From Myxococcota bacterium (GTDB lineage Bacteria > Myxococcota_A > Bradymonadia > UBA7976 > UBA1532): DNA of 64,000 nucleotides. Of the stretch, positions 17,059-39,057 are shown piece by piece. Every line of letters starts with the position of its first letter. Within the stretch, counting starts at the first letter, position 1. Under the pieces are notes generated by a model. That model was given only the letters and a program-made list of their open reading frames with translations. It searched no databases and was not told the DNA's origin. The position numbers and the translations under genes are program-made. The stretch is taken from positions 184,711-248,710 of the forward strand of contig CAUJDF010000042.1 in the NCBI GenBank assembly GCA_963169045.1, read 5' to 3'.

Positions 17059-17185
17059 GACGGGCCTCCAACGAAGCGGAACCATTGCTGCTTACAGAGC
17101 AAGCGACGGGCCGGTGGCGCGGCTCGACCGTGGCATGACCGCTGCACTCCCGGGGGATGCCACTACCCCCCCGAGGAGGAAGGCC

Positions 17186-29873: not shown

Positions 29874-32009
29874 TCAGCGCGGGGGCGCGTCCAGCGGAAT
29901 GCGGCCGTCGAAGCCGACACCCGAGTCGATGAGACGTCCGCTGCCGTCGACGTGCACGAAGGCGGGGGTGGAACGCACGGCGAAGAGCTGATGGGCCTGG
30001 TCGGCGAGGTCGAGGGCGATGGGGAACGGGAAGGGCCGGCCGCCGAGGCGGAACTTCGCGTGGAAGGCGGCGACGTCGGCGGCGGGCTCGTTGGTGATGG
30101 CGACGACCTGGGCGTTGTGGCTGATGGCCCAGCGCTTGAGCGCCGGCAGCGCGCGCTTGCAGGGGCCGCAGTGGGTCGCCCAGAAGAAGAGGACGGTGGG
30201 GCGGTCCTCGGAGAGCTTCGGCAGCGGCGGGGCGCCCTCGAGGGCGCCGAGCTCCAGGGCGGGCACGGCGTCGCCCGGCTCGAGGGGCCGCAGCGGCAGC
30301 GGCATGGGGACGAGGCGGACGGGCACCACCTCGGTGCCGCCGTCGCGCAGGACGGTGATCCGGGCGGTGTGTCCCGCGCCGGCGAGGGCGACGTGGGCGC
30401 GCAGCTCGCCGGTCGCGTTCAGGGGCGCGTCGTCGAACTTCACGAGCACATCGCCGGCGCGCAGGCCCGCGGCGCCGCCGGGGCCGTCGGCGCGCACGTC
30501 CTTGACCTTGGCGCCCGCGGGGCCCTCGTCGTAGGTCACGCCGAGGTACGCGGGGCGCAGCTCGGCCACGCCGGCGACGAGTGTGTCGACGGGCGGCAGC
30601 GGCTCCATCGCCGGCGGCTCGTCCTTCGGGCGTGGCGCGGCGCCGGCCAGCGTGACCGGGGGCAGGAGCGGCGCCTCCTCGCAGGCGCGCAGCTGCTCGA
30701 GCTGGTCGCGCGCGGGCGCCGAGAGGAGCGGCGGCGCGGCGAGGCGCGCGTAGAGGTACGCGATGCGCAGCGCGGCGGCCTCCTGCAGCTCGAGGCGCTC
30801 GCTCAGCTCGTCGCCGCGGCGGACGCGCGCGTTGACGGCGGCGAGGCGCGCGTCGAGCGCGGGGTGCTCGACGAGCGACGCCTTGAGCTGCTTCACGATG
30901 CCGCGGCGCGCGTTGACGCGCGCGTCGCGCGGGGCGGCGCGCGCGAGCTGGACGGTGAACGGCTCGGCGAGGCGCGCGCGGTCGGCGCCGATCACGGCGT
31001 CCCAGCGGTCGGACCACTCGTCGAGGGCGAAGAGGGCGGCGTCGACGCGGCGGCGGACCTGCTCGGTGGCGGCGAAGGTCGACACGTCGCCGAGGCCGTA
31101 CTGGCGCGCGATGCGCTGCGCGAGCCGGCGGGCGGGCGCGTCGGCGGGGACCTGCGCGAGCCGCGCGTCGACGAGCGCGGCCACCGTCTGCCCGCGGCGC
31201 TCGGCCTCCTCGGCCAGCGTCCGGTACAGGAAGGCGTCGCTCGTCAGGTGCGGCGTGTCGGGCGTGTCGTCGGTGAGCATTGCCTCGTCGGTGGCGGCGG
31301 CGACGGTGCCGTGCCGCTGCAACCCCGCGAGAAACTTCTGGAAATGGCCGATGTCCTGCCGCTCGGCGAGCTCGGGGAAGCACCCGTAGGCCGGCCGGTC
31401 GGGCATGGCTGCGAAGCTGCCGCAGAGGTTCTCGCGCTCGAGGTGCAGGCCGGCGAAGCCGCCGCCGTAGCACTGGGACATCCAGAGCACGACGCGCACC
31501 CCTTCGGGGACGGGGCGCAGATCGGCGGCCAGCTCCTGCGTCGTCCAGCTCTCGCCCCAGAGCGAGATGCGCGTGTCCCACTCGCCCTTCGGGTCGGGCT
31601 GGCCGTGGTCGGTGACGGCGAGCAGCAGCGTGTCGCCCGGTTGCAGGCGGCCGCCCTCGCGGGCGAGCCAGGCCTTGAGGGCGCGGCGCTTGGCGGGGCG
31701 CGGCTCGTAGCCCGGGAAGGTCGTGTCCTCGAGCGCCGGGCCGACGCGGGTGGCCTCGTCGAGGCGCGTCCCGTGGAGCAGCCAGTCGTCGCGGACGGCG
31801 TCCTCGGGCCGGACGACGGCGCGGTCCGCTCCGGGCGCGGCGCCGTCGGCCCAGAACACGGCGATGTCCGCCTTCGGGATGCCGCGCGCCTCGGCGGCCT
31901 CGACGAGGGCCCGCACGTGGACGGCGTGGCTGTTGTAGTTCTCGGCCGCCTCGCCCCCTCCGGCGAGGACGAGCACCTTGAGCGCGGCGAGGAGAAGCGG
32001 AGAGCCCAT
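29874..32009 (-). CDS. Clan-CD (C13/caspase-like) cysteine peptidase - PDZ - thioredoxin-like fusion, 711 aa
   Basis: LLLAVTDHGQPD (His motif) and VVLWMSQCYGGGFAG (Cys motif); PDZ PAYLGVTYDEGPAGAKVKDVRADGPGGAAGLRAGDVLVKFDD; thioredoxin TVLFFWATHCGPCKRALPALKRWA. Only this part of the 2977-aa ORF is real. Confidence 0.85.
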   Translation of the reverse strand: MGSPLLLAALKVLVLAGGGEAAENYNSHAVHVRALVEAAEARGIPKADIAVFWADGAAPGADRAVVRPEDAVRDDWLLHGTRLDEATRVGPALEDTTFPGYEPRPAKRRALKAWLAREGGRLQPGDTLLLAVTDHGQPDPKGEWDTRISLWGESWTTQELAADLRPVPEGVRVVLWMSQCYGGGFAGLHLERENLCGSFAAMPDRPAYGCFPELAERQDIGHFQKFLAGLQRHGTVAAATDEAMLTDDTPDTPHLTSDAFLYRTLAEEAERRGQTVAALVDARLAQVPADAPARRLAQRIARQYGLGDVSTFAATEQVRRRVDAALFALDEWSDRWDAVIGADRARLAEPFTVQLARAAPRDARVNARRGIVKQLKASLVEHPALDARLAAVNARVRRGDELSERLELQEAAALRIAYLYARLAAPPLLSAPARDQLEQLRACEEAPLLPPVTLAGAAPRPKDEPPAMEPLPPVDTLVAGVAELRPAYLGVTYDEGPAGAKVKDVRADGPGGAAGLRAGDVLVKFDDAPLNATGELRAHVALAGAGHTARITVLRDGGTEVVPVRLVPMPLPLRPLEPGDAVPALELGALEGAPPLPKLSEDRPTVLFFWATHCGPCKRALPALKRWAISHNAQVVAITNEPAADVAAFHAKFRLGGRPFPFPIALDLADQAHQLFAVRSTPAFVHVDGSGRLIDSGVGFDGRIPLDAPPR

Positions 32010-32050: not shown

Positions 32051-33586
32051 TCACGCGCGACGGACGCCGAGCTTCTGCATGCGCGACTGCAGGGTGGTCG
32101 GCTTGAGGCCGAGCAGATCGGCGGCGCCGCCGGGGCCGTAGACGCGGCCGTTCGTGCGCGTCAGGACGGCCTCGATGTGCAGGCGCTGCACCTCGTCGAG
32201 CGTGCGCACGGGCGCGTCCTCCGGGGGCGGAGGCGCGGCCCGGCGGACGTTGCCCGGCGCCTCGAAGAGCGAGGGCTCGAGGTCCCCCTCCGGCTGCAGG
32301 ATGGTGGCGCGCTCGAGGGCGTTGACGAGCTGGCGGACGTTGCCCGGCCAGGGCAGCGCGCGCAGGCGTTCGGCGGTGGCGCGCGGCAGCGTCCAGGGCC
32401 CGCGGCCGGTGCGCAGCGCGAGGCCGCGCAGGACGTCCTCGGCGATCGGCACCACGTCCTCGGGGCGGTCGCGCAGCGGCGGCAGGCGCAGCGGGAAGAC
32501 GTCGAGGCGATAGAGCAGGTCCTCGCGGAAGCGCCCGTCGCGCACGGCGGCGGCGAGATCGACGTTCGTCGCGGCGAGGATGCGGACGTCGACGCGCACC
32601 GTCTGGTCCGCGCCGACCGGCTCGAACGTGCCCTCCTGCAGCACGCGCAGCAGCTTGGCCTGCGCGCCCGCCGGCAGGTCGCCCACCTCGTCGAGCAGGA
32701 GCGTGCCGCCGTTGGCGGTGAGGAAGCGCCCGGGGCGCGCCCCGGTCGCGCCGGAGAAGGCGCCCTTCACGTGGCCGAAGAGCTCGGATTCGACGAGGTT
32801 TTCGGGCAGCGCGGCGCAGTTGATCTTCACGAACGGCTGATCGCGGCGGCGGCTCCAGTCGTGGAGGGCCTGGGCGAGGACCTCCTTGCCGGCGCCGGTC
32901 TCGCCGAGGAGGAGGACCGGCGTGTCGGTGACCGCCACCTGGCGGGCCTGGCGGGCGAGGCGCTGCACGACGGGCGAGCGGCTGTGCTCGAAGCGGGCGG
33001 TCGCGTCGGTGGGGCGGCCGGCCTCCTCCGCGAGCAGGCGGCTGTGCTCCTGCAGGCGCAGGCGGTAGCGGTCGAGCAGGCGCGCCTGCTCCGCGTGCAG
33101 AAAGGCGAGCGCCACGATCTGCCCGTAGACGCCGGCGAGGCCGACCATCTCCGGCGCGTAGGGCCGACAGACGCCGCGGTCGAGCGTGATGACACCGAGC
33201 GTGCGGTCGCCGGCGAAGAGGGGCACGACCATGCAGGCGTGCCCCGCGGGCAGGTCGAGCACGCCGTCGTACGGGTCGCCCTCGTCGGAGGCGTGGTGGT
33301 GCTCGAGCATGGCGATCGGCTGCCGCGTCTCGAGGGCGCGTCGCACGGTGGGGTAACGTCGCAGGGTGATCCGGTGACGGTGCACCTCGGGGCGCGCGAG
33401 CGGCCCGCGGGCGGCGCGAACACTGAGCTCGTCGCCGTGCAGCTCGAGGACGGCCGCGAGGTCGTAGGGCACGAGGGCCGCGAGCGAGTCGAGCGCGCGC
33501 CCGAGGACGTCGTCGAGCGAGTCCGGATGTCCGGCGAGGCGGGCGATCTCCCGCAGGTCGGCGGTGTAATCGACGATGTCCGGCAT
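32051..33586 (-). CDS. Sigma-54-dependent transcriptional activator (GAF - AAA+ - Fis HTH)
   Basis: [81 protein letters not shown] (GAFTGA-like GAFSGA); N-terminal GAF; C-terminal [22 protein letters not shown]. Confidence 0.97.
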
Positions 33587-33601: not shown

Positions 33602-33656
33602 ACGAGATTTCGTTGGATGCACCGACATTTCGGTGCGTCGCGCAACGAAATTTCGT
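33602..33656. promoter_or_regulatory. Three inverted-repeat operator/UAS sites
   Basis: ACGAGATTTCGT (33602-33613), GCACCGA-CATT-TCGGTGC (33619-33636), ACGAAATTTCGT (33645-33656, perfect palindrome); centres 20 and 23 bp apart; shared ATTTCG core. Confidence 0.75.
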
Positions 33657-33688
33657 CGACGGCGGCGGAAAACGCCGCGGCGCCGGGT

Positions 33689-33704
33689 TGGCACGGCGCC
33701 TGCT
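33689..33704 (+). promoter_or_regulatory. Sigma-54 (-24/-12) promoter of the peroxiredoxin operon
   Basis: TGGCAC-GGCGC-CTGCT versus consensus TGGCAC-N5-TTGCW; about 55 nt upstream of the ahpC-like ATG and 30-90 bp downstream of the inverted repeats. Confidence 0.75.
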
Positions 33705-33758
33705 CAAGGGGCACGGCGTGGCGGCAACGACGCCGCCCCAACCCCCGAGGAGAGAGCC

Positions 33759-34289
33759 ATGTTGACGATCGGCGACCGCCTTCCGAACTTCGACCTGACC
33801 GCCGTGGTGAGCCGCGACAAGAACGAGGCCTTCAAGCAGATCCACCAGGACAGCTTCCCCGGCAAGTGGAAGGTCCTGTTCTTCTGGCCGATGGACTTCA
33901 CGTTCATCTGCCCGACGGAGATCGCGGCCTTCGGCAAGCGCAACCGCGACTTCAACGACCGCGACGCGGTCATCCTCGGCGCCAGCACCGACACGCACTA
34001 CGTGCACCTCGCCTGGCGCAACGACCACCCGGACCTGAAGGACCTGCCCTACCCGATGCTCGCCGACACCAAGCGCGAGCTGGCGACGGCGCTGGGCATC
34101 CTGCACAAGACCGACGGCGTCGCGCTGCGCGCCACGTTCATCGTCGACCCGGACAACGTCATCCGCTGGGTGAGCGTGAACGACCTGTCGGTGGGCCGCA
34201 GCGTGGACGAGACGCTCCGCGTGCTCGACGCGCTCCAGACCGACGAGCTCTGCCCCTGCAACTGGCAGAAGGGCGACCCCACTCTCTGA
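33759..34289 (+). CDS. ahpC: AhpC/TSA peroxiredoxin
   Basis: MLTIGDRLPNFDLTAVVSRDKNEAFKQIHQDSFPGKWKVLFFWPMDFTFICPTEIAAFGKRNRDFNDRDAVILGASTDTHYVHLAWR; C-terminal ELCPCNWQKG. Confidence 0.96.
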   Translation: MLTIGDRLPNFDLTAVVSRDKNEAFKQIHQDSFPGKWKVLFFWPMDFTFICPTEIAAFGKRNRDFNDRDAVILGASTDTHYVHLAWRNDHPDLKDLPYPMLADTKRELATALGILHKTDGVALRATFIVDPDNVIRWVSVNDLSVGRSVDETLRVLDALQTDELCPCNWQKGDPTL

Positions 34290-34325: not shown

Positions 34326-34850
34326 GTGAACGCGATCGACGCCCTGCGGGACCGGATCCCCGACCCGGCCCGCGACATCTCCGTGAACCTGCAGTCGGTG
34401 CTGACGCAAGGGTCGCTGAGCGAGGCGCAGCGCTGGGGCGTCGCGCTCGCGGTGGCCCTCGCGTCGGGCAACGCCGACCTGGCCCGCGCCATCGCCGCCG
34501 ACGGGGCGGGCGCGGGCCCGGCGGTGGCCGACGACGCCCGCGCCGCGGCCGCGCTGATGGCGATGAACAACGTGTACTACCGCTTCCGACATCAGATCGG
34601 GAAGGCGACGTACACCGAGAAGCCGGCGCGCCTGCGCATGCAGCGGATCGTGAAACCGCTGACGAACAAAGCGGATTTCGAGCTGATGTGCCTCGCGGTG
34701 AGCGCGGTGAACGGCTGCGAGGCGTGCGTGCGCGCCCACGAGCGCTCCGTGCTCGAGCTGGGCCTGACCGAGGAGCACGTCCACGACGCGGTGCGCGTCG
34801 CGGCGGTGGTCCGCGCCGCCGCCGTGACGCTGTCGATGCCGGCGATCTGA
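34326..34850 (+). CDS. ahpD: AhpD-family alkylhydroperoxidase
   Basis: LCLAVSAVNGCEACVRAHERSVLELGLTEEHVHDAVRVAAVVRAAAVTLS (CxxC + downstream His). Confidence 0.93.
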   Translation: MNAIDALRDRIPDPARDISVNLQSVLTQGSLSEAQRWGVALAVALASGNADLARAIAADGAGAGPAVADDARAAAALMAMNNVYYRFRHQIGKATYTEKPARLRMQRIVKPLTNKADFELMCLAVSAVNGCEACVRAHERSVLELGLTEEHVHDAVRVAAVVRAAAVTLSMPAI

Positions 34851-34910: not shown

Positions 34911-35390
34911 ATGAAGGGCAACAAGAACGGCGGCGTCGGCATCGCGCCCGAGCACCGCAAGCGCATCGCCGGCGATCTCGGTCGCCTGTTGGCGGACACC
35001 TACCTGCTGCAGCTCAAGACGCAGAACTACCACTGGAACGTGACGGGGCCGATGTTCGTCCAGCTGCACGCGCTGTTCGAGACACAGTACGAGCAGCTCT
35101 CCGAGGCGGTGGACGAGCTGGCCGAACGCATCCGGGCGCTGGGCGAGCCGGCGCCGGGCACCTTCCGGCAATTCAAGGACCTGGCCTCGGTGAAGGAGGA
35201 CGACTCGCTGCCCGAGGCGAAGGAGATGGTGCGGCTGCTGGCGGAGTGCCACGAGGTGTGCGCCCGCAACACGCGCCAGGTCATCCCGCGCGCCGACGAG
35301 GCCGGCGACGACGTCACCGCCGACCTGCTGACCGAGCGCCTGGCCGCGCACGAGAAGAGCGTCTGGATGCTGCGCGCGATTCTCGGCTGA
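34911..35390 (+). CDS. dps: Dps family ferritin-like protein
   Basis: LLADTYLLQLKTQNYHWNVTGPMFVQLHALFETQYEQLSEAVDELAERIRALGEPAPGTFRQF. Confidence 0.95.
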   Translation: MKGNKNGGVGIAPEHRKRIAGDLGRLLADTYLLQLKTQNYHWNVTGPMFVQLHALFETQYEQLSEAVDELAERIRALGEPAPGTFRQFKDLASVKEDDSLPEAKEMVRLLAECHEVCARNTRQVIPRADEAGDDVTADLLTERLAAHEKSVWMLRAILG

Positions 35391-35433: not shown

Positions 35434-38400
35434 ATGATGAAGCGTCGTGCCCTCCCCTGGCTCGTCCTCGTCCTCGCCGCCTGCACCGAAGAGAACCCGG
35501 ATCGCGTGACGTTACCCGCCGACGCGCCCGACGCCGCCGCGTGCGTGGACGGCGCGGCTTGCGACGACGGCGATCCGTGCACCGCGGGCGATCGATGCGA
35601 GCGCGGCGCGTGCCGCGGCGAGCCGCGGATCTGCGACGACGACGATCCGTGCACCGTCGACCGCTGCGACCCGACGAGCGGCATGTGCTTCGGCGAGGCC
35701 ATGCCGGTGCAGGGGCGCGAGGGCGAGCCGGGCGACGCCCGCTGCGGCGACGGCGTCGACGGCGACTGCGACGGGCTCGTCGACGGTGCGGACGCGGACT
35801 GCCGGCGCTGTGCGGACGACGCGGAGTGCGTCGACGCGAACCCGTGCACCCGCGAGCGCTGCGCCCGCGGACGCTGCGAGTCGGTGAACGCCGACGACGG
35901 CGTCGCGTGCGACGACGGCGACGCCTGCACCGAAGGCGACACGTGCGGCGGCGGGCGCTGCGGCGGGGCGCCGCGCGCCTGCCCGCCCGTCGAAGGCGCG
36001 TGCATGGCGCCGGCGTGCGCCGAAGGCGAGTGCGGCGCGGCGCCCCTCCCCGACGGGACGGCCTGCGACGACGGGGACCCATGCACGACGGAAGACGCTT
36101 GCGTTTCGGGCACTTGCGACGGCAAGCCCCGCGACTGCGGCGAGCTCGACGGGCCTTGCGTCCGCGGCGTGTGCGCCGAAGGCGGCTGCCGCGCGGCGCC
36201 GCGCGTCGACGGCACGCCGTGCGACGACGGCCTCTGCCAGCCCGACGCCATCTGCGTCGCCGGCGAGTGCGCCGGCGATCGCGTCGACTGCTCGCGGCTC
36301 GACGGCGTGTGCCGCGTCGGCGTCTGCGATCCCGACACCGGCGGGTGCGGCGCGGCGGCGGCTCCCGCGGGCACCGCGTGCGACGATGGCGATCCGTGCA
36401 CCACGGACGACGCGTGCGGGGAAGGCGGATGCCGGGGCACGCCGCGGGCCTGCGACGGCGGCCCCTGCGGTGTGGGCCGCTGCGACGCGGCCACCGGCGC
36501 GTGCGTCGTCGACCCGGCGCCGAACGGGACGCCCTGCGACGACGGCGAAGGCTGCACCGAGGGCGACCGCTGCGTGGACGGCGCGTGTCTCGGCGCCGAG
36601 CGCGCCTGCCCCGCGCCCGACGCGCCATGCCGGGTGGCCGCCTGCGACCCGCGCACGGGCGAGTGCGGGCGCGCGCCGGCGCCCGACGGGACGGCCTGCG
36701 ACGACGGCGACCGCTGCACCACGGGCGACGCCTGCACGGCGGGGCGCTGCGAGGGGGCGGCCCCGGCCTGCGACGATGGCGACGCGTGCACGGTGGACCG
36801 CTGCGATCCGGTGAGCGGGGCCTGCGTCCACCCCTTGCAGCCAGGCGACGGGCGCGAGGGCGCACCCGGCGACCCCGCGTGCGCCAACGGGCGCGACGAC
36901 GACTGCGACGGCCTCGCCGACGCCGCCGACGCGGACTGCCGCCGCTGCGCCGCGGACGCCGACTGCGACGACGGCGATCCCTGCACGGAATTCTCTTGCG
37001 ATGCGGGGACTTGCGTAGCCCGCCCCAGCGCGGCGGACGGACGCGCTTGCGACGACGGCGACGCCTGCACCCAGGGCGACACGTGCCGCGCCGAGCGCTG
37101 CGAGGGCGCCGCCGTCGACTGCTCCGGGCTCGACGGACCGTGCGCGCGCGGCGTGTGCGCCCTGGGCGCGTGCGTGCCGCGGCCGGTCGGCGACGGCGCG
37201 GCCTGCGACGACGGCGACGCCTGCACCCAGGGCGACGCGTGCCGCGAGGGCTCGTGCGCCGGACGCCCGCGCGACTGCTCGGCGCTCGACGACGAGTGCC
37301 GGGTGGGCCGCTGCGCCGAGGGCGGCTGCCGCGCCGAGCCGCGCCCGGCGGCGACGCCCTGCAACGACGGGCAGCCGTGCACCGTCCGCGACGCCTGCGA
37401 GGCCGGCGAGTGCCGCGGCGCGCCCGCCGACTGCGGCGCGTTCGATGGCGCATGCGTGGTCGGCCAGTGCGATCCGACGAGCGGCGACTGCGCGCCGGTC
37501 CGCCTGCCCGACGGGAGCGGGTGCGACGACGGCGATCCGTGCACCGTCGACGACGCGTGCACCCTCGGCGCCTGCGCCGGGCGCCCGCGCGACTGCGCCG
37601 CGCTCGACGGGGCGTGCGTGGTCGGGCGGTGCGACGAGGGCGCGTGCCGCGCGGTGCCGAGGCGCGACGGGACGCCCTGCGACGACGGCAGCGCGTGCAC
37701 CGCGGAGGACGCATGCGGCGGCGGCGAATGCCGCGGCGCGGCGCGTGATTGCGCCGCGCTCGACGGCCCGTGCGTCGTCGGCGCGTGCGATCCGGCGACG
37801 GGGCGCTGCGTCGCGGTGCCCGCCGGCGACGGCGCCCCCTGCGACGACGGCCTCCGCTGCACCGCCGACGACCGCTGCGCCGAGGGCGGCTGTGTCGGGG
37901 CGCCCGTGGACTGCCGCCGCCTGGACGGCCCGTGCGCGACGGGGGCGTGTGATCCCGCGACCGGCGCCTGCGTCGCCCGCCCGCTGCCCGACGACACCGC
38001 GTGCGACGACGGCCAGGCCTGCACCGACGGCGATGCGTGCCGCGACGGCGCATGCCGCGGCGACGGCCTCGATTGCGGCGGGCTGAACGACGCGTGTGTC
38101 GTCGGCGTCTGCGACCCGGCGGCGGGCGACTGCCGCGCCGAGCCGCTGGCCGACGGATCTCCCTGTGATCCCGGGGACTTGTGCACGGTGGGCGCCACGT
38201 GCGAGCGCGGCGCCTGCGTGGGCGCGCCGCGCGACTGCAGCGCGCTCGACGGGCCGTGCGTCACCGGCGCGTGCGATCCGGCGACCGGCGCGTGCGTGGC
38301 GGAGCGCGCGGCGGAGGGGACCGCCTGCGAAGACGGCAATCCGTGTACGGTCGAGGAGCGCTGCGAGGCGGGCCGCTGCCTCGGCGGCGCCCGGAGCTGT

Positions 38401-39057
38401 GCGCACCTCGACGGCCCGTGCACCGTCGGCCGGTGTGACGCGCAGCAGGGCTGCGTCGCCGTGCCGCGCGCCGACGGCGCCGCCTGCGACACCGGCAACC
38501 CCTGCCTGACGGAGGAGGCCTGCCGCGCCGGCGTCTGTACCGGGACGCCGATCGCCTGCGTCGACGCGGACCCGAACCCGTGCCGCGCCGCCGCGTGCAA
38601 TCCGGCCACCGGGCGATGCGAGCCGGCGGACGTGGCCGACGGCACCGCCTGCGACGACGGCGCGTTCTGCACGACGGGGGACGCGTGCCGCGCCGGCCAG
38701 TGCCGCGGCGCGGCCCGCGACTGCAACCCGCCCGGCGAGCCGTGCCGTGTCGGCACCTGCGACGAGCGTCGCGACCGGTGCGACGTCGGCAACCGGCCGA
38801 ACGGCACCGCCTGCGACGATGGTCAGTTCTGCAGCGTGGGCGACCGCTGCTACAGCGGCACCTGTCGGCCCACGGGCAGCCGCGACTGCCCCGACGCGAA
38901 CGCCGGGTGCGCGCGCGGCGTGTGCGACGAGCAGGGCGACCGCTGCACGCAGGTGGCGGCGCCCGAGGGCACCCTGTGCTTCGACGGGAACCCCTGCACC
39001 TTGGGCGACACCTGCCGCGGCGGTGACTGCGCCGCCGGCCGCGACATCTGCCCCTGA
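35434..39057 (+). CDS. 1207-aa Cys-rich repeat lipoprotein with two MopE-like Asp-rich motifs
   Basis: Lipobox LVLVLAAC; about 23 repeats of the type (A/P)CDDGxxCTxxDxCxxGxCxGxxxxC; GDGVDGDCDGLVDGADADC and NGRDDDCDGLADAADADC. Confidence 0.9.
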   Translation: MMKRRALPWLVLVLAACTEENPDRVTLPADAPDAAACVDGAACDDGDPCTAGDRCERGACRGEPRICDDDDPCTVDRCDPTSGMCFGEAMPVQGREGEPGDARCGDGVDGDCDGLVDGADADCRRCADDAECVDANPCTRERCARGRCESVNADDGVACDDGDACTEGDTCGGGRCGGAPRACPPVEGACMAPACAEGECGAAPLPDGTACDDGDPCTTEDACVSGTCDGKPRDCGELDGPCVRGVCAEGGCRAAPRVDGTPCDDGLCQPDAICVAGECAGDRVDCSRLDGVCRVGVCDPDTGGCGAAAAPAGTACDDGDPCTTDDACGEGGCRGTPRACDGGPCGVGRCDAATGACVVDPAPNGTPCDDGEGCTEGDRCVDGACLGAERACPAPDAPCRVAACDPRTGECGRAPAPDGTACDDGDRCTTGDACTAGRCEGAAPACDDGDACTVDRCDPVSGACVHPLQPGDGREGAPGDPACANGRDDDCDGLADAADADCRRCAADADCDDGDPCTEFSCDAGTCVARPSAADGRACDDGDACTQGDTCRAERCEGAAVDCSGLDGPCARGVCALGACVPRPVGDGAACDDGDACTQGDACREGSCAGRPRDCSALDDECRVGRCAEGGCRAEPRPAATPCNDGQPCTVRDACEAGECRGAPADCGAFDGACVVGQCDPTSGDCAPVRLPDGSGCDDGDPCTVDDACTLGACAGRPRDCAALDGACVVGRCDEGACRAVPRRDGTPCDDGSACTAEDACGGGECRGAARDCAALDGPCVVGACDPATGRCVAVPAGDGAPCDDGLRCTADDRCAEGGCVGAPVDCRRLDGPCATGACDPATGACVARPLPDDTACDDGQACTDGDACRDGACRGDGLDCGGLNDACVVGVCDPAAGDCRAEPLADGSPCDPGDLCTVGATCERGACVGAPRDCSALDGPCVTGACDPATGACVAERAAEGTACEDGNPCTVEERCEAGRCLGGARSCAHLDGPCTVGRCDAQQGCVAVPRADGAACDTGNPCLTEEACRAGVCTGTPIACVDADPNPCRAAACNPATGRCEPADVADGTACDDGAFCTTGDACRAGQCRGAARDCNPPGEPCRVGTCDERRDRCDVGNRPNGTACDDGQFCSVGDRCYSGTCRPTGSRDCPDANAGCARGVCDEQGDRCTQVAAPEGTLCFDGNPCTLGDTCRGGDCAAGRDICP
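35560..39050 (+). repeat. Degenerate ~40-45 aa Cys-rich repeat array
   Basis: Repeated tgcgacgacggc...tgcacc cores through the gene. Confidence 0.85.

Follow-up and report, generated by a model that had tools for sequence, protein, structure and literature searches.

The window, by which we mean the whole 64 kb stretch of myxococcotal DNA that was analysed, contains a gene for a sigma-54 activator (bEBP; 32051..33586, minus strand, 511 aa) that diverges from three genes of peroxide defence. Pfam and the alignment of orthologs divide the activator into a GAF sensor, an AAA+ domain (PF00158, 1e-66) with a GAFSGA loop and a Fis-type HTH (HTH_8), so that the sigma-54 interaction domain, the loop and the HTH expected of a bEBP are all present, in agreement with the GAF sensor and GAFSGA loop proposed by the first-pass annotation. 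Nearly all orthologs have either GAFSGA or GAFTGA as their loop, and GAFSGA is listed among the variants compatible with activation in the accessible text of one survey (PMC4641369). The best NCBIfam match of the protein is NorR, with a score of 361 bits that lies below the 476-bit cut-off of that model. The genome of the window has one rpoN gene, and a -24/-12 target is found in the promoter region described below. On the plus strand, Pfam and NCBIfam identify the peroxiredoxin gene ahpC (33759..34289, 176 aa), ahpD, which encodes a carboxymuconolactone-decarboxylase-type alkylhydroperoxidase (34326..34850, 174 aa), and a dps-type ferritin gene (34911..35390, 159 aa); since they are separated by gaps of 36 and 60 nt, they probably form one operon. 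The gene directly downstream of that of the bEBP, also on the minus strand (29874-32009), encodes a protein of 711 aa, which contains a PDZ domain and, at the C-terminus, an AhpC-TSA/thioredoxin-like domain; this gene may share the bEBP transcript. The gene that follows dps (35434-39057, plus strand) encodes a Cys-rich repeat protein of 1207 aa with a predicted lipoprotein-like start, the sole Pfam match of which is the Dictyostelium CTDC repeat.

Three palindromes, recovered as strandless motif matches, lie between the start codons of the divergent bEBP (33586) and ahpC (ATG 33759): ACGAGATTTCGT at 33602-33613, GCACCGACATTTCGGTGC at 33619-33636 (core CCGACATTTCGG, 33622-33633) and ACGAAATTTCGT at 33645-33656. 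Their cores start at 33602, 33622 and 33645, that is, 20 and 23 bp apart. They are followed, within the same interval, by the sigma-54 -24/-12 promoter TGGCACGGCGCCTGCT (33689-33704, plus strand), which was identified by sequence match and by its conserved position in orthologs, and from which ahpC transcription is predicted to start near 33714-33716. The three inverted repeats and the promoter that had been proposed for this region are therefore all in place, as is the single mismatch to the sigma-54 consensus, which is a CTGC instead of TTGC at the -12 element. In a motif model that was made from related loci and left out the window and its nearest relative, the palindromes obtain the best three scores of the 64 kb (22.2, 19.6 and 14.6 bits; the next one is 12.6). 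Three sites above 14 bits did not appear in any of 5,000 first-order Markov resamplings of the intergenic region, and an equally good sigma-54 element appeared in 0.02% of 5,000 such resamplings. Comparable sigma-54-like words also exist elsewhere in the window (TGGCACGGGCGTCGCA at 2925-2940 and TGGCATGACCGCTGCA at 17131-17146, both on the plus strand), so the word before ahpC would be unconvincing alone and it is its conserved position that convinces. The first-pass annotation also suggested a search of the genome for further palindromes. Across its 9.0 Mb, pairs of CGANATNTCG at a distance of 5-20 bp occur as two overlapping pairs here and in one other place, which is within a repetitive open frame; at this double-site stringency, the scan of the 9.0 Mb found no regulon members outside the locus. 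Palindromes at C28 and C108 of the same genome were discarded, as they are within open frames.

Orthologs of the bEBP are present in 42 of the 379 genomes of the same phylum (48-73% identity). The closest records that carry a name are metagenome-assembled genomes of Polyangia and Myxococcota, which makes Myxococcota the probable phylum. Their genomic neighbourhoods were studied in 43 ortholog loci, to which some named records (L002-L005) are additional. A peroxide-removing gene adjoins the bEBP in 32 of these 43 loci, and these genes belong to at least seven unrelated families (representatives of every neighbour enzyme class were verified by Pfam); by comparison, none of 95 control bEBP loci has a peroxide-removing gene within 1.5 kb. 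The most common neighbour is AhpC, generally accompanied by AhpD and in several cases also by Dps (window, L160, L168, L171, L174, L176-L182), including one locus in which Dps comes first (L118). Other neighbours are a peroxiredoxin-glutaredoxin fusion (L115, L116, L164, L191), the same fusion preceded by a flavin disulfide reductase (L161, L163, L165, L170 and also L002), the catalase KatA (L167, L183), KatG (L175, L185), rubrerythrin (L120, L187), a di-haem cytochrome c peroxidase (L173, L188-L190) and Dps (L172). One genome (G342) has two bEBP copies, one opposite a catalase and the other opposite ahpC-ahpD-dps. The other 11 of the 43 lack a peroxide gene next to the bEBP, two of them being at contig ends. 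In five loci (L117, L119, L162, L166, L184), neither the sites nor a peroxide neighbour was found, so that the peroxide role is not necessarily common to all the members of the clade. In the nearest relative of the window (L112, genome G008), the sites adjacent to the bEBP precede an FKBP gene and the catalase has sites elsewhere. As for the named records, a contig entitled Rhodobacterales (L004) is equal in length to L186, from a genome (G327) of the phylum of the window, and identical to it in site positions; both are apparently the same contig and the record title is probably wrong.

In most of the peroxide-linked ortholog loci, a -24/-12 element comes after two to four ACGAWATWTCGT palindromes. 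In many orthologs the palindromes preferentially precede the -24 element by about 106, 87 and 64 bp, and their spacings amount to about 19 and 23-24 bp; the corresponding distances in the window are 87, 67 and 44 bp, so that its array is closer to the promoter by around 20 bp, or approximately two helical turns. The sites and promoter are found 3' of the end of the bEBP gene in L115 and before the bEBP-containing operon in L168 and L191. The genomes that bear the bEBP were searched for unlinked sites, either palindromes in tandem or one palindrome with a promoter after it. Such sites were found with a good -24/-12 element before a catalase-ankyrin gene pair in G008 (L214), before both katG (L216) and a cytochrome c peroxidase gene (L217) in G228, where the linked target is ahpC, before a cytochrome c peroxidase gene in G327 (L218) and before a rubrerythrin gene in G072 (L238). 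The element is weaker but at the expected distance before the cytochrome c peroxidase gene of G246 (L215), and it was not found before the peroxiredoxin-glutaredoxin gene of G263 (L220). A single site followed by a promoter occurs in 17 of the 42 genomes with the bEBP versus 30 of the 337 without it (p=6e-7). This pattern is by itself unspecific for the regulon: many of its matches look like chance, so only those inspected by eye, with tandem palindromes and a peroxide gene next to them, were kept.

Some other occurrences of similar sites were observed. Two contigs (L231, G011:C518; L232, G005:C842) carry ACGAAATYTCGT sites and a -24/-12 promoter before an AhpD-type (CMD) gene, and both also hold a different, more distant bEBP (~45% identity); perhaps they represent a second type of activator with a similar operator. 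An arrangement of the CGAAATTTCGACA...TGGCACGG type exists seven times in G270 (L253 and L219 among them), and the two that were inspected precede secreted or lipoprotein-like genes. In L221 (G068:C15:78875), a second bEBP-type gene and an isochorismatase-like gene enclose two palindromes of the same type and a -24/-12-like element.

Altogether, it is very likely that the bEBP, the three sites, the sigma-54 promoter and the peroxide operon make up one regulatory unit. Judging from the conserved sites and neighbours, the regulon is clade-wide and its putative targets are unrelated peroxide-removing enzymes that extend beyond AhpC. The idea of a sigma-54 control of peroxide defence holds at the sequence level, as rpoN is present and the sites, the promoter and the peroxide targets recur across the phylum. 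In the mechanism that we favour, bEBP dimers would bind the three ACGAWATWTCGT palindromes, the reception of a signal by the GAF domain would lead to the assembly of the AAA+ ring, and this ring would remodel the sigma54-RNA polymerase at 33689-33704 and switch on ahpC-ahpD-dps. Since the target proteins are unrelated and what they share is peroxide as a substrate or threat, the signal that is most economical to assume is peroxide; that the activator responds to it, most likely in the form of hydrogen peroxide, seems probable.

How this signal would be perceived can be approached through the GAF domain. The bEBPs form a monophyletic clade (support = 0.99 including a Holophagaceae member, L005) outside NorR, but the tree does not show an exclusive sisterhood of both groups; the structural model of the GAF domain (mean pLDDT 87.7) resembles GAF domains generally. 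Mutants of NorR indicate that R75, Y98, D99, H111 and C113 are among the residues required for its iron centre, and R75 has been proposed as the ligand that NO displaces (PMC2941729). R75 is replaced in nearly all the clade members, which do not carry the NorR iron residues as a complete set including this arginine. The alignment shows that the equivalents of the NorR D96, Y/F98, D99, H111, C113 and D131 are kept as D104, Y/F106, D107, H116, C118 and D136 (D96 and D131 are residues that we take to be further members of the iron centre). D104, H116, C118 and D136 are found in 46 of 46 clade members and D107 in 42 of 46. Two residues are new in the clade, H98 (45/46) and C140 (46/46); the 15 NorR proteins that were compared have Leu at the place of H98 and mostly Pro or Ala at that of C140. 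These substitutions fit a NorR-like metal site that would have been retuned from NO to peroxide: the GAF domain may read H2O2 through a presumably iron-binding site made of D104, D107, H116, C118 and D136, altered by the loss of the NO-displaced arginine and the gain of H98 and C140. Direct sensing by such a NorR-like iron site is put forward here tentatively.

Several other scenarios may explain these data. The main alternative chemistry to the metal site is a C118-C140 disulfide, in which case the protein would be a thiol sensor of peroxide or disulfide stress and the metal would not be involved. The invariance of both cysteines in the 46 members and the absence of C140 from the 15 NorR proteins speak for this possibility, yet the acidic and histidine residues of the metal site, which would be superfluous in a pure thiol switch, are also kept; we regard this possibility as unlikely, albeit the best of the alternatives. 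Less probable still is a NorR-like sensing of NO (or peroxynitrite) by the bEBP, with the peroxidases guarding against nitrosative stress. AhpC-type enzymes are able to reduce peroxynitrite, NorR is the best NCBIfam match of the protein, most of the iron-centre residues are kept and the geometry of the enhancer equals that of norVW. Nevertheless, catalase, KatG, di-haem cytochrome c peroxidase and rubrerythrin, which have H2O2 as a substrate in common, are among the targets, neither NO reductase nor flavohaemoglobin nor hcp was seen as an adjacent gene in the ortholog loci, and the arginine for which displacement by NO has been proposed is lost. Finally, it is highly improbable that the palindromes serve only the autoregulation of the bEBP (or another protein) and that the sigma-54 word before ahpC arose by chance: autoregulation is possible, given that the sites start 16 bp upstream of the start codon of the bEBP, and chance sigma-54-like words do occur in this G+C-rich window, but the site-to-promoter spacing is repeated in many loci, the sites and promoter also occur 3' of the bEBP, before bEBP-containing operons and before unlinked peroxide genes, and a sigma-70-like site was looked for and not found.

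The reading of the locus as a peroxide-responsive sigma-54 unit has to be placed in the context of the known regulators. The bacterial response to H2O2 has been described mainly through OxyR and PerR, whose regulons share ahpC, katA/katG and dps with the targets found here (PMC8115020). The difference resides in the regulators themselves, which are LysR-type or Fur-type in those systems and a sigma-54 activator with a GAF sensor in this one. The E. coli-based OxyR model remains below its cut-off in every genome of the phylum, so an E-value limit (E <=1e-60) was used instead to define OxyR-like genes. These are present in 3 of the 42 genomes with the bEBP versus 88 of the 337 without it (Fisher p=0.006, uncorrected for relatedness). 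The first-pass annotation had contrasted the locus with the usual OxyR/PerR control. No OxyR-like gene was found in the genome of the window at 1e-60; a control by PerR may exist, as this genome has one Fur-family gene that may be Fur or PerR, two proteins with no reliable distinction from sequence (PMC8115020).

The regulons of bEBPs have been predicted by comparative approaches similar to ours in Desulfovibrio vulgaris (PMC4641369) and in several phyla (PMC12316311). In the accessible text of the former, peroxide, rubrerythrin and superoxide are unmentioned, as are peroxide, catalase and ahpC in that of the latter, and a dedicated peroxide bEBP was found in neither of these texts. According to a report cited in PMC12316311, Myxococcus xanthus needs sigma-54 for its viability. 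Similarly, no description of a sigma-54 activator of peroxide genes was found in open-access papers, which were the scope of the literature search. The arrangement points to a putative, undescribed way of switching on peroxide defence, in which conserved sites tie a sigma-54 activator carrying a NorR-type sensor to peroxide-removing proteins from at least seven unrelated families. If true, this would explain the regulation of peroxide defence in bacteria without a recognisable OxyR and would allow a NO sensor to be compared directly with a probable peroxide sensor, both being based on one GAF metal site; an operator, a promoter and a set of residues are now defined and open to direct testing. 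Taken as a whole, the locus likely comprises a NorR-type sigma-54 enhancer and promoter under the control of a peroxide-regulator clade of bEBPs, which would perhaps replace OxyR in part of the phylum. The broader proposal that this clade is a further dedicated class of H2O2 sensors besides OxyR and PerR, with a rebuilt NorR-like GAF site, many peroxidases under its control and a role as OxyR stand-in, is conceivable but more speculative.

The closest known system is that of E. coli NorR-norVW, in which a GAF-AAA+-HTH activator is also divergent from its target. Measured on the E. coli locus (L137), the norVW sites are 21 and 24 bp apart and the last one lies 66 bp before TGGCACG. Both systems have three tandem enhancer sites with nearly equal spacing and distance to the promoter, a likeness to NorR-type layouts that had been noticed from the window alone and that the norVW measurements corroborate. 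When the spacings and distances of the ortholog loci are compared to those of norVW, the geometry is close to that of a NorR enhancer and the sequence of the operator is different, namely ACGAWATWTCGT here and GT-N7-AC in NorR (PMC1274295). The predicted targets also differ, being peroxide-removing genes here and NO-detoxifying genes in NorR. Most of the NorR non-haem iron residues are conserved in the bEBP clade, which is distinguished from NorR by the loss of R75, the gain of His98 and Cys140, a score below the model cut-off and its separate position in the tree. As far as these features indicate, the working mode of the activator is NorR-like, yet model cut-off, operator, targets and R75 place it outside NorR itself.
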